Shown in pieces: positions 5,086 to 10,108 of a stretch of 64,000 bases of DNA (positions within the stretch are counted from its first letter, which is position 1; the number at the start of each line of letters is the position of its first letter). The stretch covers positions 620,001 through 684,000 of the forward strand of contig NZ_CP097800.1 in the NCBI RefSeq assembly GCF_000612545.2, written 5' to 3'. The DNA comes from Streptomyces sp. PCS3-D2. GTDB lineage: Bacteria; Actinomycetota; Actinomycetes; Streptomycetales; Streptomycetaceae. The notes beneath the pieces were generated by a model. The model ran no database searches, was not told where the DNA came from, and saw nothing but the letters and a program-made list of their open reading frames with translations. Made by a program: the position numbers and the translations under genes.

Positions 5086-6996
5086 TCACCTCGGCACCGG
5101 CGTGACGCGGACGCTCTCGCGCACGGTCACCTGGTCGATGTCGGTGGTGCGCACCGTGATGTTCAGGATCCACTCACCGGGCATGGGGATCTGCAGGTCA
5201 TAAGCAGCCCAGTACCCCTTCTGGTTCTTGAGCCGGGCGTCCAGGGGGCCGATCCCGAGGTCGTCCTGGGTGAGGGTGAGGCGGAGTTCCGGGACTGCGG
5301 CGAGACCGCCGTCGGCGGTGAAGACGACGGCTTCGACCGTGTTCTCGCCGACCTGACCAGGGGTCAGTGTGATCTGCACCGTGCCGCGGTGATGCGGCTT
5401 TCCCATGTCGAAGGGGACCGTGACCACCTTCACCCGCGGCTCCTCCGCGGAGGCCGCCGGGCTCCCCCCTTCGGCGGCTCGGCCGGGCTGGGTACCCGTG
5501 AGCAGCGTGGTGATCGCCAGGATCAGGACACCGAGTGCGGCCTCGACCGCGACCGTGCGGCGCAGGCCGCGCCGCTCGGTTCCGGCCTCCTGTGCGGGCG
5601 GTTCCGGTTCGTCGCCCCGCCGGTCCCGCTCCGGCGCGGCGGACGCGGGTCCGGGCCCCGTACCCGCCGGAGACGAGGTTGCGCCGACCGTGTGAGCGGC
5701 GGGAACCCGCTCGGGAAGGGCCGGGGTCGGCGTCCGCCCGGTCGCCGCCTCGCGGACCAGGCGGGCGGTCCAGCGGCGGGAGAAGGAGGCGACCCACAGC
5801 GTCAGGACCACGACAACCGTCTTCACGACCAGGGTCTTGCCGTACGAGGTGGTGGTCAGCGCCTCCCAGGACCCGACTTGCCGCCAGGACTGGTACGCCC
5901 CGGTGCCCACCAGGACGGCGACAGCAGTGCGAGCGAGCCGGGAGAAGCGGCCGATCCCGGCCGCCGGGATGGCCGGACCGCCGGGTGCCCGGCTGCGCAG
6001 GAGGAGCAGCAGCGTGAACAGACCGCCCAGCCACACCCCCATGGCCAGGAGGTGTACGACGGCGACCGGCATGGCCAACGCCACCTGGAGGCCGGTGGAT
6101 GCGTGTTCCGCCGAGGCCCAGGTGAAGGCGAGGGCCACAGCCAGGAGCACACAGGCCAGGCGGAGCCGGGCGGAGGGACCGCGGGCCGGTGGCGCGTCGT
6201 CGAGGAGGCCGAGCCGCGAGGCCGACCGCTTCAGCAGCACCGCGGCGAGGACCAGGAGCGCGAGCCGTGCGACGAGCGCGCCGCCGGGCCTCCCGGAGAC
6301 GGTGCGGGTCAGCTGGGCGGGGTCGAACACCGACGTCACCGCGTCGGCCGTCTCGTACGGGCCGCGCAGCAGCACCAGGGCCACCGTGGACGCCGCCAGA
6401 GCCGTCCACCCGATCACCAGCAGCCTGCGCACCGGACGGGCCGCGCCCGCCGCGGGCCTGCACACGAGGACGACCGCGGCAGTTCCGACGAGGAGGGCCA
6501 TACCGCTGTAGGCGACGTAGCGGAAGATGCCGTACAGGCGGCCGACCGCCGTGCCGTCAGGCGATCCCGCCACCAGCACCGCCGACGTCTCGGACGGCTC
6601 TCCGAGAGAGAAGGTGAACGCGCCGGAGATCGGGTGGCCGTCGGCGGAGACGACCCTCCAGGCCACCGTGTAGGTGCCCCGGGGCAGGTCGTCGGACAGC
6701 TCCACCCGGGCGGTGTTCTCCTTGCGGTCCACATGCTGCGCCGGGCGGGGGTTCACCCGCTCGTTCCGCGGCGACAGCACCCGCAGCGAGTCTTCGACGA
6801 AGCCCACCGACTCCGTGAAGGTGAGCGTGACGTACCGGGGGTCCACGGTGAGGACGGCGCCGTCGCCGGGGTCGGATCCGCTCAGCCCGGCATGCGCGCA
6901 GGCCGGTCCGGCCCCGCCGAGGAGCAGCGCGCACAGGGCGGCGAGCAGCGCCAGGACGGTCGACGGCCTCCTTGCGGAAGATGATCCACTGGGCAT
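5086..6996 (-). CDS. Copper resistance fusion protein: CopC domain, CopD-like membrane domain, C-terminal extracytoplasmic domain
   Basis: A 636-residue protein begins with a signal peptide (about residues 1-35, ending ACAHA). The CopC domain at 35-135 starts HAGLSGSDPGDGAVL with the conserved mature N-terminal His. Multiple membrane helices from about 150 to 430 match CopD (FRYVAYSGMALLVG, VVHLLAMGVWLGGLF, TTSYGKTLVVKT). A Pro/Glu-rich linker with one further helix follows. The last 130 residues resemble a YtkA-like extracytoplasmic domain (PFDMGKPHHRGTVQITLTPGQVGENTVE) that could bind metal. CopC-CopD proteins handle copper at the membrane, probably import or buffering. GGAGG lies 7 bases before the ATG. 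No copper regulator is adjacent. Confidence 0.83.
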   Translation of the reverse strand: MPSGSSSARRPSTVLALLAALCALLLGGAGPACAHAGLSGSDPGDGAVLTVDPRYVTLTFTESVGFVEDSLRVLSPRNERVNPRPAQHVDRKENTARVELSDDLPRGTYTVAWRVVSADGHPISGAFTFSLGEPSETSAVLVAGSPDGTAVGRLYGIFRYVAYSGMALLVGTAAVVLVCRPAAGAARPVRRLLVIGWTALAASTVALVLLRGPYETADAVTSVFDPAQLTRTVSGRPGGALVARLALLVLAAVLLKRSASRLGLLDDAPPARGPSARLRLACVLLAVALAFTWASAEHASTGLQVALAMPVAVVHLLAMGVWLGGLFTLLLLLRSRAPGGPAIPAAGIGRFSRLARTAVAVLVGTGAYQSWRQVGSWEALTTTSYGKTLVVKTVVVVLTLWVASFSRRWTARLVREAATGRTPTPALPERVPAAHTVGATSSPAGTGPGPASAAPERDRRGDEPEPPAQEAGTERRGLRRTVAVEAALGVLILAITTLLTGTQPGRAAEGGSPAASAEEPRVKVVTVPFDMGKPHHRGTVQITLTPGQVGENTVEAVVFTADGGLAAVPELRLTLTQDDLGIGPLDARLKNQKGYWAAYDLQIPMPGEWILNITVRTTDIDQVTVRESVRVTPVPR

Positions 6997-7224: not shown

Positions 7225-8589
7225 TCAGCAACCGCCGGAGGCGGCAGGCGCCGCGCCGACGCTCAGGGTGGCCGGGGTTCCGCAGCATCCACCGCCGGCC
7301 TCTTCCGTTGCTGCGGGCTCGTCGAAGAGACCCGCGCCGCCGCAGACCCCGGTCTCCGGGAGGGTGAGCTCGACGCGCTCCGCCGCCTCGCGATCCCCCG
7401 CGAGGTGCGCGGCGATGGAGCGGACCTGCTCGTAGCCGGTGAGGGCGAGGAAGGTGGGGGCGCGACCGTAGGACTTCATGCCGACCAGGTAGACGTCCTT
7501 CTCCGGGTGGGAGAGCTCGCCCACACCGTGGGGGTAGACGGTGCCGCAGGAGTGCTGGTTCGGGTCGATCAGCGGCGCGAGCTCGACCGGGGCCTGGAGG
7601 CGCTCGTCGAGACCGAGACGGAGCTCGTCCAGGAAGTCGAGGTCGGGGCGGAAGCCCGTGAGGACGATGACTTCGTCCACCGGTTCCAAACGGCGGCCGT
7701 CCTCCCCGACGAGAACCAGGCGGCCGTCCCCGTCTCGCTCGAAGGCGTCGGTGCGGAAGCCGGTGACCGCGTCGGCGTGGCCGCCGTCGACCGCGGCCTT
7801 CGCCGCCAGCCCGAGGGCGCCGCGGGCGGGCAGTTGGTCGGCCTCGCCACCGCCGAACGTGGAGCCGGAGATACCCCGGCGCAGGATCCACGTCGCGTGC
7901 GTGCCCCGGCCGTCGTCGGCCTCGGCGAGGGCGGCCAGGGAGGCGAGGGCGGTGAAGGCGGAGGCGCCGGAGCCGATGACCGCGGTGCGCTTCCCGGCGT
8001 AACGGGCACGGGCGGCGGGGTCCTTCAGGTCCGGGACGCGGTAGGTGATGCGGTCGGCGGCGGCCTTCTCGCCGAGGGCGGCCAGTCCGCTGCCGCCGGC
8101 GGGACTCGGGGTGGACCAGGTGCCGGAGGCGTCGATGACCGCGCGGGCGAGGAGGCGGTCTTCGTGGCCGTCGGCGTTCTCGTAGTGGACGACGAAGGGC
8201 TGGGCTTCACGGTCGGCGTCGACGATGCGGTCGCGGCCGGTGCGGGAGACACCCGTGACGCGGGCGCCGTAGCGGACCCGCTCGCCGAGCACGTCGGCGA
8301 GCGGTTGGAGGTAGCGCTCGGCCCAGTCACCGCCGGAGGGGTAGGAGTCCTCGGCGGGCTTGGTCCAGCCGGTCGGGGCGAGGAGCTTCTCCGCGGCCGG
8401 GTCGACGACCTCGCCCCAGCGGGAGAACAGCCGCACGTGGGCCCACTCGCGCACCGCGGCCCCGGCGACGGGGCCGGCCTCCAGGACGAGGGGGGTGATG
8501 TCGCGACCCAGGAGGTGGGCGGCGGCCGCGAGTCCGGCGGGGCCGGCTCCGATGACGACGACGGGCAGCTCGGTGGTGGTCTCGCTCAT
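7225..8589 (-). CDS. FAD/NAD(P)-dependent oxidoreductase of the arsenic locus (ArsO-like)
   Basis: A 454-residue two-dinucleotide-fold flavoprotein. VVVIGAGPAGLAAAAHL at residues 10-26 binds FAD, TAVIGSGASAFTALASL near residue 200 is a second GxGxxx fold for NAD(P)H, and the downstream ATG-like motif is VIVLTGFRPDLDF. The C-terminus is unusual: the last 45 residues contain Cys at CGGAG, a CC pair in GGGCCGTP and a final Cys. Flavoproteins named ArsO or ArsT occur in streptomycete ars clusters, but their substrate is not firmly established. GGAG lies 8 bases before the ATG. It follows the 21-residue Cys-rich ORF by 57 bp and shares the arsR divergent promoter region. Could instead act as a sulfide or thiol oxidoreductase. 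Confidence 0.68.
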   Translation of the reverse strand: MSETTTELPVVVIGAGPAGLAAAAHLLGRDITPLVLEAGPVAGAAVREWAHVRLFSRWGEVVDPAAEKLLAPTGWTKPAEDSYPSGGDWAERYLQPLADVLGERVRYGARVTGVSRTGRDRIVDADREAQPFVVHYENADGHEDRLLARAVIDASGTWSTPSPAGGSGLAALGEKAAADRITYRVPDLKDPAARARYAGKRTAVIGSGASAFTALASLAALAEADDGRGTHATWILRRGISGSTFGGGEADQLPARGALGLAAKAAVDGGHADAVTGFRTDAFERDGDGRLVLVGEDGRRLEPVDEVIVLTGFRPDLDFLDELRLGLDERLQAPVELAPLIDPNQHSCGTVYPHGVGELSHPEKDVYLVGMKSYGRAPTFLALTGYEQVRSIAAHLAGDREAAERVELTLPETGVCGGAGLFDEPAATEEAGGGCCGTPATLSVGAAPAASGGC

Positions 8590-8646
8590 GGCAGATCTCC
8601 GGTCTTCGCGCAGGCGGACGGACGGATGGGCGTGAGTCGCGGGCGG

Positions 8647-8712
8647 TCAGCAGCAGCCGGTGCGACAGCAGGGCGCGAACCGGTCGGGAGCAGGAGTGAC
8701 CGGATCGTTCAT
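8647..8712 (-). CDS. Cys-rich 21-residue microprotein or leader peptide
   Basis: This is a short ORF of 21 codons plus stop between the divergent promoter region and the arsO-like gene. It starts at an ATG with GGGAG 5 bases upstream and ends FAPCCRTGCC, so two Cys pairs sit 3 residues apart. The rest is Pro/Asp-rich and soluble-looking. The paired cysteines and the position between arsR and the ars flavoprotein suggest either an arsenite-binding or trafficking microprotein, or a Cys-codon leader peptide that senses thiol stress. Neither is proven. The same CC feature recurs in the downstream flavoprotein tail and in the ArsR N-terminus. Confidence 0.5.
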   Translation of the reverse strand: MNDPVTPAPDRFAPCCRTGCC

Positions 8713-8781
8713 GACGACTCCCGGTTGTTTCGACGTTCGTCAATGGCTTGTGCGGTCAGCATGGCACCTGCATCGACAGAC

Positions 8782-8804
8782 GTCAACATAGACATTTATC
8801 GAAT
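8782..8804. promoter_or_regulatory. Putative ArsR operator, arsO side
   Basis: A 23-bp element beginning gtcaacataga is repeated 65 bp away (8847-8869) with 19 of 23 positions identical. This copy lies about 70 bp upstream of the Cys-rich ORF and overlaps a minus-strand -10-like TATGTT. AT-rich ATA-containing operators are usual for ArsR/SmtB repressors. Confidence 0.5.
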
Positions 8805-8846
8805 CCACAGGCCGAGCCGACCCCCTCCACCCTTGGTTCGATGTGT

Positions 8847-8869
8847 GTCAACATAGATGTATGTCGAAT
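8847..8869. promoter_or_regulatory. Putative ArsR operator overlapping the arsR start
   Basis: This is the second copy of the 23-bp element. It contains a -10-like ATAGAT and runs through the arsR ATG at 8861, which leaves no room for a ribosome-binding site. That layout suggests a leaderless arsR transcript repressed by its own product. Confidence 0.5.
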
Positions 8870-9229
8870 GCGAAGGTTCTGCCGCTACTGGAGCCCGACG
8901 TCGTCGCAGCCTGCTGCCCGCCCCTGACCGAGCGCCCGATGTCGGCCGGGGAGGCCGAGGTCGCGGCGAGGATGTTCAAGGCCCTCGGCGACCCCGTGCG
9001 CCTGCGCCTGTTCTCCGCCGTCGCCTCCCACGAGGGCGGCGAGGCGTGCGTCTGCGACATCTCCGACGTCGGCGTCTCCCAACCCACCGTCTCCCATCAC
9101 CTGAAGAAGCTGAAGGAGGCCGGCCTACTGTCCTCCGAGCGCAGGGGGACGTGGGTGTACTACCGGGTCGAGCCGTCGGTGCTCGCCGCCATGGGCGCAC
9201 TGCTGACAGGCGCCGCGAAGACGGCATGA
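8861..9229 (+). CDS. arsR: ArsR/SmtB-family metalloregulatory repressor (arsR1)
   Basis: A 122-residue winged-helix repressor. Residues 35-115 hold the DNA-binding core (MFKALGDPVRLRLFSAVAS, then VSQPTVSHHLKKLKEAGLL and GTWVYYRV). Candidate As(III) ligands are the N-terminal pair C18-C19 (VVAACCPP) and C63/C65 (EACVCDIS), matching the actinobacterial design in which an N-terminal Cys pair from one subunit joins a Cys near helix 3/4. The longer frame from 8843 is disfavoured because the element at 8847-8869 covers that start; the ATG at 8861 gives a normal N-terminus and no Shine-Dalgarno is needed if leaderless. It is divergent from the Cys-rich ORF and arsO-like gene. Confidence 0.88.
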   Translation: MSNAKVLPLLEPDVVAACCPPLTERPMSAGEAEVAARMFKALGDPVRLRLFSAVASHEGGEACVCDISDVGVSQPTVSHHLKKLKEAGLLSSERRGTWVYYRVEPSVLAAMGALLTGAAKTA

Positions 9230-9240
9230 CAACGGCGCGG

Positions 9241-9298
<58 letters not shown>

Positions 9299-9331
9299 AG
9301 CCGCCGATCACCGCCACTCCCGTACCCCGCG

Positions 9332-10108
9332 TCACTCCGGGGGCGCCGCGCCGTCCCCCGTGCCGCGCAGGAAGATGACCGCCACCAGAGCCAGGCCCAC
9401 CACGGCGCCGACGAGCTGCACGGCGACGAAGCCGGGCACCGAGGCCGGGGCGATGCCCGCGAACGTGTCGGTGAAGGCACGCCCGATGGTGACGGCCGGA
9501 TTGGCGAAGGAGGTGGAGGAGGTGAACCAGTAGGCGGCGCCGATGTACGAGGCGACCGCGACGGGAGCGAAGCGCAGCCGGTCCGTGCGCGCCAGACCGA
9601 AGATCAGCAGGATCAGACCGGCCGTGGCGACGACCTCACCGAGCAGGAGGTTCCCGGCGGAGCGGTCCTGGGTGGACCATTTGACCAGCGGTTCCCCGAA
9701 CATCGCGTCCGCGAGGATCGCGCCCGCGATGGCCCCCGCGACCTGCGAGGGCAGGTAGACGGCCAGCTCGCGGGCGTTGACGCCGGCGCCGCCACGACGG
9801 GCGGTCCACCACTCGGCCAGCGTCACGGCGGGATTGAAGTGGGCTCCGGAGACCGGGCCGAGGAGTGCGATCAGGACGCCGAGCCCGAACACCGTCGCGG
9901 TGGAGTTGGCCAGCAGCTGCAGGCCCACGTCCTGGGTGAGTCGCGCGGCCTGGATGCCCGAGCCGACGACGACCGCGACGAGGGCCGCGGTGCCGACCAG
10001 CTCGGCGGCCGCGCGGGAGATCAGCGGGGTGCGGGGCGGGGTCGCTCCGGGGGCGGGCCGGGGCGGGTCGGCAGGTATCGAGGTGCCGACGGGCTGGGTC
10101 GCGGTCAA
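9332..10108 (-). CDS. MIP-family aquaporin/aquaglyceroporin of the arsenic locus (AqpS-like)
   Basis: A 258-residue membrane channel with six hydrophobic helices and two half-helices carrying the NPA signatures GAHFNPAVT (about residue 92) and SFANPAVT (about residue 203). The N-terminal 30 residues are Pro-rich and cytoplasmic. In Sinorhizobium meliloti the ars operon uses the channel AqpS in place of an arsenite pump, so arsenite made by ArsC leaves down its gradient. The position here, 40 bp after an arsR and next to arsC, fits the same role. A general water or glycerol channel is the alternative. No ArsB or Acr3 is present in the window. Confidence 0.82.
   Translation of the reverse strand: MTATQPVGTSIPADPPRPAPGATPPRTPLISRAAAELVGTAALVAVVVGSGIQAARLTQDVGLQLLANSTATVFGLGVLIALLGPVSGAHFNPAVTLAEWWTARRGGAGVNARELAVYLPSQVAGAIAGAILADAMFGEPLVKWSTQDRSAGNLLLGEVVATAGLILLIFGLARTDRLRFAPVAVASYIGAAYWFTSSTSFANPAVTIGRAFTDTFAGIAPASVPGFVAVQLVGAVVGLALVAVIFLRGTGDGAAPPE

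Follow-up and report, generated by a model that had tools for sequence, protein, structure and literature searches.

The arsenic locus of Streptomyces sp. PCS3-D2 contains a reading frame of only 21 codons between a divergent arsR gene and the gene for a flavoprotein, which raises the question whether this frame is a gene in its own right, a regulatory leader or the leftover of a longer gene. The DNA analysed was a stretch of 64,000 nt, called the window below, together with corresponding loci of related genomes. A small ORF with a ribosome binding site had been proposed for this position by a first-pass annotation, and this was borne out: the ORF lies in an ArsR-type locus, its ATG follows GGGAG, and its minus-strand product is MNDPVTPAPDRFAPCCRTGCC, followed by a stop codon. 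The plus-strand reading of positions 8647-8712 is unrelated to it. A distance of 57 nt separates the stop codon from the flavoprotein ATG. Table 1 lists the features of the region.

Table 1. Features around the 21-codon ORF, with positions in the window
Feature	Position	Strand	Remark
Operator-like repeat, copy 2	8847..8869	.	83% identical to copy 1; overlaps arsR start
ArsR/SmtB repressor	8861..9229	plus	probable start ATG 8861; ORF listed from GTG 8843
Operator-like repeat, copy 1	8782..8804	.	23-nt direct repeat; overlaps presumed -35 of the minus-strand unit
Conserved operator/promoter/5' leader	8713..8804	minus	where the small gene is missing, mostly followed by the flavoprotein start within 25 nt
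GGGAG, ribosome binding site of the 21-codon ORF	8718..8722	minus	5 nt ahead of ATG
21-codon ORF	8712..8647	minus	encodes MNDPVTPAPDRFAPCCRTGCC; homologous to a four-CC protein of 67-73 aa, with internal deletions
GGAG, ribosome binding site of the flavoprotein gene	8597..8600	minus	from the sequence
FAD/NAD(P)-dependent flavoprotein with Cys-rich C-terminal tail	7225..8589	minus	ArsO-like, far below the family cut-off

The arsenic locus and its conserved leader

A presumed promoter of the minus-strand unit was recognised by eye (TTGACG, 8786-8781, and CATGCT, 8763-8758, with 17 nt between); it was not called by a scan with the sigma-70 consensus. The two 23-nt repeats, one before each of the divergent genes, are arranged as expected of an ArsR operator that controls both, and ArsR presumably binds to them. 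Two genes of the locus pass the cut-off for the ArsR family, and the scores of an aquaporin-like channel and of an ArsC-like reductase stay below those of NCBIfam; the channel, the second ArsR and the reductase lie farther along from arsR. Directly behind arsR, positions 9257-9298 hold 4.7 perfect tandem copies of the 9-nt unit CCGAGCGGG. Downstream of the flavoprotein gene, an ORF of 636 aa on the minus strand (5086-6996) contains CopC and CopD domains (Pfam E values 2e-25 and 2e-16) and likely encodes a copper-handling protein.

The earlier label arsO for the flavoprotein gene reflects a weak likeness to ArsO. The protein reaches 54.3 bits against the ArsO flavin monooxygenase family NF040505, whose cut-off is 425, so that arsO is a loose label here. 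The Cys pairs described before in ArsR (...VVAACCPPL...) and in the flavoprotein tail (...GGGCCGTPATLSVGAAPAASGGC) are both present. In the window ArsR the pair occupies residues 18-19, and further Cys residues stand at 63 and 65 (counted by eye). A CC pair was found within the last 75 residues of the flavoprotein in all 109 loci read, window included. The tail follows a TGVCGG...CC...GGC-type pattern, which we take to resemble the C-terminal Cys pair of mercuric reductase.

Matches to the flavoprotein at an E value of 1e-100 were obtained in 164 of 296 genus genomes. The comparison of loci is based on 30 loci from these 296 genomes and on the best 80 of 545 among named genomes, whose records are nearly all from Streptomyces; some species may be in both sets. 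An ORF with at least two CC pairs in the 450 nt ahead of the flavoprotein gene is present in eight of the 110 loci (the window and seven others) and absent from 102, the scan of locus L046 being restricted to the 117 nt available there. The leader was matched in 91 of the 110 loci, 83 of them devoid of the small gene. In 74 of these 83 the flavoprotein gene starts no more than 25 nt behind the leader, and in nine the distance is 40-190 nt. Of the 30 loci listed from the leader search, 21 lack the gene, and in all 21 the distance is again at most 25 nt.

The flavoprotein gene often begins with ATGAAC or GTGAAC where the small gene is missing; where it is present, the small gene itself begins with ATGAAC or ATGAAT right behind the leader. 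It looks as if the small gene was inserted at the old start codon, a direction suggested by how common each of the two arrangements is. At seven loci (L003-L007, L012, L043) the start of the small gene, e.g. GGGAGTCGTCATGAACGAG, resembles by eye the start of the flavoprotein gene behind it (CGGAGACATGCCATGAGCGAG). A duplicated start region could explain both the gain and the exact loss of the small gene.

A four-CC small protein at the same position in related genomes

At the same position, behind the same leader and with the same start codon, nine related Streptomyces genomes carry an ORF of 67-73 aa with four Cys-Cys pairs, for example MNEPVTPTSPNRAEAAGSCCGPTPAQPAVEVASVQSSPCCGTSEGAEAAGACCDPQAKREAVATGVGCC. 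Seven of the nine come from the comparison of loci, among them Streptomyces sp. ISL-1 (L043), and two further ones (G331 and G309) from a DNA search with the window leader and ORF. The window ORF is thus not a chance frame, since its leader, start codon, first codons, CC residues and stop codon align with this gene of 67-73 codons in nine other genomes. The proteins are short and rich in Ala, Pro, Gly and Cys, with Cys occurring as CC pairs only. All eight cysteines of the four pairs are invariant in the nine long forms, with variation between TGC and TGT at three of the eight codons, and residues other than Cys are conserved as well. A purine-rich stretch stands at the Shine-Dalgarno position of the long homologues, with changes, and is weakest in G188 (GGAGCAG). 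In all ten loci with the small gene the flavoprotein start lies 47-69 nt past its stop codon and is preceded by CCGGAGA.

The pattern of substitutions points to the long form as a coding gene. Frameshifts or premature stops in relatives had been named as evidence against a coding ORF; for the long family none were found, all nine frames being intact and differing in length by whole codons. Over ungapped columns the pooled pN/pS is 0.54, compared to 0.95 (sd 0.16) in 200 column shuffles, none of which gave a value as low. Over the full alignment it is 0.59 in the true frame and 0.88 and 1.34 in the shifted frames, for which stop codons were dropped. The C-terminal part, from SPCCG onward, has a pN/pS of 0.36 and the N-terminal part one of 0.79. 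Pairwise dN/dS has a median of 0.54, and because single pairs range from 0.25 to 1.13 (the latter for G331/G309), the constraint is moderate. As judged from these codon comparisons, the long form is a coding gene under moderate constraint.

The long gene is rare in the genus. The DNA search with leader and ORF matched 157 of 393 genus genomes, and among the matches listed the long ORF was found in at least eight of these genomes besides the window. A profile of the long form, which does not detect the 21-codon ORF of the window, gave 20 matches in 19 of 292 genus genomes. Six were strong, each in a different genome and all at this locus, and 14 were weak (E values 4.5e-4 to 0.01). Inspection of the Cys-motif frames near the middle of ten of the weak-match loci (L118-L123, L125, L128, L130, L131; L124, L126, L127 and L129 were left out) revealed no homologue. 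Further copies in the window's own genome were not convincing, judged from the Cys-motif frames near the middle of its three matching loci (L132-L134; best E value 0.17). The long form had no match in plasmids and none at an E value of 1e-4 in a sample of 396 genomes of the phylum, a weak negative because the sample included no positive control genome.

The long four-CC protein has no named family match in Pfam or NCBIfam for the forms scanned. The Pfam scan covered two of the long forms and, of the 21-mer, 20 residues (one chance match to another family, E value 0.98), the NCBIfam scan three long forms and the 21-mer; the ArsD family profile was not matched in either database. Rfam gave no match within positions 8000-9500. 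No title describing a four-CC protein of this kind in an arsenic locus was found among those that the literature search returned. Two local sources of the long protein were also considered. Its local alignment to the flavoprotein tail is no better than that of shuffled sequences (222 of 500 as good), and the one to ArsR is little better (68 of 500 as good); both origins were rejected.

Probable derivation of the 21-codon ORF

The window ORF shares with the long forms the operator and leader, with Shine-Dalgarno sequence and ATG directly before the frame, and the flavoprotein gene behind it. It has two Cys pairs rather than four and 21 aa rather than 67-73. By alignment it is a derivative of the four-CC small protein, homologous with deletions, and not a full member. 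Over 66 aligned positions, 52-55 bases are identical to those of the long forms, with alignment scores of 52-71; base-shuffled versions of the window ORF, 300 for each comparison, reached 24.7 at most. The missing length amounts to 138-156 nt in total and is a multiple of three in all nine comparisons. With four of the nine long forms the alignment contains two gaps, each a multiple of three (72+72 nt for G042, 66+72 nt for G039, 69+72 nt for both G331 and G309), which remove Cys pairs 1 and 3; in the G042 alignment the ORF keeps pairs 2 and 4. With four others the first gap is split into two parts that only in sum are a multiple of three (34+38 nt for G199 and for G250, 34+35 nt for G227, 37+35 nt for G188), and G227 and G199 are the nearest to the window on the flavoprotein tree. 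For ISL-1 the gaps are 18+138 nt, and given these differing splits the number of deletion events is uncertain.

A tree was calculated from 45 of 132 distinct flavoproteins chosen around the holders of the small gene, with six partial duplicate loci left out and with G331 and G309 represented by pieces of 420 and 418 aa. The window falls into a group of five (support 91/89) nested in a group of eight (71/81), and the other seven members of the latter all have the long form. Within the five, the branch that unites the four long forms next to the window has poor support (59/64). A topology in which the seven long ones form a clade that excludes the window is rejected weakly (AU p 0.045). As the window lies inside a group whose other members are long, the short form would most simply be derived from the long form, with moderate support. 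The holders G250 and ISL-1 stand elsewhere on the tree, and a single clade of all ten holders is rejected (AU p 1e-5). Because the holders do not form one clade, gain, loss or transfer of the small gene would have occurred repeatedly, and the gene would be dispensable; as read from this tree, its history is patchy.

The 21-aa form itself was found in one genome only in all locus sets scanned. A search for a second one among 100 relatives gave four matches at an E value of 1e-20 and no new holder. The same search in 395 genomes of the family gave nine matches at 1e-22, comprising the window, G250 and G039, all three of which were known to have a Cys ORF, one locus known to be without it (G383) and five new loci. 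In the new loci little distance separates the leader from the flavoprotein gene; frames with two CC pairs were found in L166 alone, two of them, and not next to the leader. A 21-residue peptide of the CC-x3-CC type, whose conservation had been proposed as a check, was present in none of the other loci read, and the window ORF is instead an internally deleted version of the protein of 67-73 aa.

Proposed role, alternatives and known systems

On balance, we lean towards the view that the ORF stands as first cistron in a unit under ArsR control, that it arose by in-frame deletion from a four-CC gene and that the vicinal thiols of its product bind As(III), with the 21-mer perhaps still working. 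The long protein is probably an As(III)-binding thiol protein under ArsR. Arsenite would release ArsR from the operator, the small protein would be produced together with the flavoprotein, and either As(III) or an organoarsenical in the trivalent state would be bound by its paired thiols and then be buffered or passed to the Cys tail of the flavoprotein. The window ORF would have originated from the gene for the 67-73 aa protein by in-frame internal deletion, probably in two events. Its frame, Shine-Dalgarno sequence, start, stop and pairs 2 and 4 are kept after the loss of pairs 1 and 3. Its peptide would represent a minimal form with CCxxxCC that may have kept the ability to bind As(III) and may also be in the course of being lost. 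The idea of an arsenite-binding or trafficking peptide stays plausible because all eight cysteines of the four pairs are invariant in the long homologues, but the peptide is not conserved as a 21-mer.

A real possibility, though one that we rate as somewhat short of probable, is that in the lineage of the window the long gene stopped functioning and that the 21 codons are a decaying leftover of the deletions, maybe translated but without a role. The short form occurs in a single genome and has lost two of four Cys pairs as well as much of the conserved C-terminal part. In addition, most relatives lack the gene (102 of 110 loci, with 74 of the 83 loci that have the leader alone running within 25 nt into the flavoprotein gene), so that doing without it is tolerated. 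Against decay, however, the Shine-Dalgarno sequence, start and stop are intact, and the number of missing nucleotides is divisible by three, which by chance happens once in three times for one event and once in nine for two. Frame retention in the window ORF may favour translation a little. Seen in one genome only, the 21-mer would be either a minimal peptide that still works or what is left of a decaying gene. A bolder version appears unlikely to us. In it, an unnamed, lineage-restricted family of four-CC proteins has come to occupy, in some Streptomyces, the ribosome site and start codon that the flavoprotein gene used ancestrally, and would serve as As(III) donor of the flavoprotein; in the window the 21-residue CCxxxCC peptide would do this job.

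The first-pass annotation had also considered a leader peptide at whose Cys codons ribosomes would stall under low Cys-tRNA or thiol stress and thereby alter expression of the flavoprotein. The ORF is indeed the first upstream of an operon gene and its Cys codons are clustered, and Cys-rich regulatory short ORFs were reported in mycobacteria (Canestrari et al. 2020, cited in the part of PMC9094748 that was available). However, no terminator-like site was found, and 198 of 200 shuffles fold at least as well as the window leader. Neither a terminator nor an alternative RNA structure was found downstream of the ORF. In the ten loci, z-scores from approximate dinucleotide shuffles range from -1.38 to 1.66 for the whole leader and from -0.64 to 2.52 for the stop region, so that structure is not consistently in excess, and no run of four T occurs between ORF start and flavoprotein gene. 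Moreover, non-Cys residues are conserved in the long family, the flavoprotein gene has its own Shine-Dalgarno sequence and starts well behind the stop codon, and the same leader is kept in many loci that lack the ORF. Coupling of thiol or Cys-tRNA state to the flavoprotein is therefore unsupported, and we consider it very improbable. In the available part of the source, the mycobacterial Cys-responsive ORFs resemble the window ORF as short Cys-codon ORFs upstream of an operon gene, but, going by the title of the cited study, start leaderless with the ATG at the 5' end of the transcript (Canestrari et al. 2020, via PMC9094748). Here a Shine-Dalgarno sequence precedes the start, non-Cys residues are conserved and no regulatory RNA fold was found; the Shine-Dalgarno sequence and the conserved upstream leader speak against the leaderless type for the window ORF.

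If the long protein binds As(III), an uncharacterised thiol protein would be added to an arsenic defence unit that is common in Streptomyces, and the 21-mer of the window would be a natural test of the minimal sufficient sequence. The loci also offer a clear comparison, as the same promoter and leader occur with and without the small gene before the flavoprotein gene. If the 21-mer is only a remnant, it would caution against calling short Cys ORFs leaders without checking relatives.

Metallothionein-like small Cys-rich metal-binding proteins are presumed to serve as a thiol ligand store, and the long protein is like them in being short, in its richness in Ala, Pro, Gly and Cys and in such a presumed store function. 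It differs from them in that its Cys residues occur only as CC pairs, in that it has no family match and in that, in the genomes searched here, it was found only beside one flavoprotein gene. Within the locus, the Cys residues of the window ArsR are similar to Cys15, Cys16 and Cys55, which bind As(III) in ArsR of Corynebacterium glutamicum according to the available part of PMC4287715, and they would form a candidate site. The ArsD protein of E. coli R773 contains Cys12, Cys13 and Cys18, which are needed for its metallochaperone function, as well as the pairs Cys112-113 and Cys119-120, as stated in the part of PMC4562236 that was available. Compared to ArsD, the small protein is shorter, has four CC pairs and has no Pfam or NCBIfam match. 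As far as that part of the source describes ArsD, the two have in common that they are ars-operon proteins with vicinal Cys pairs, and the As(III) binding and hand-over proposed here would follow the same idea.
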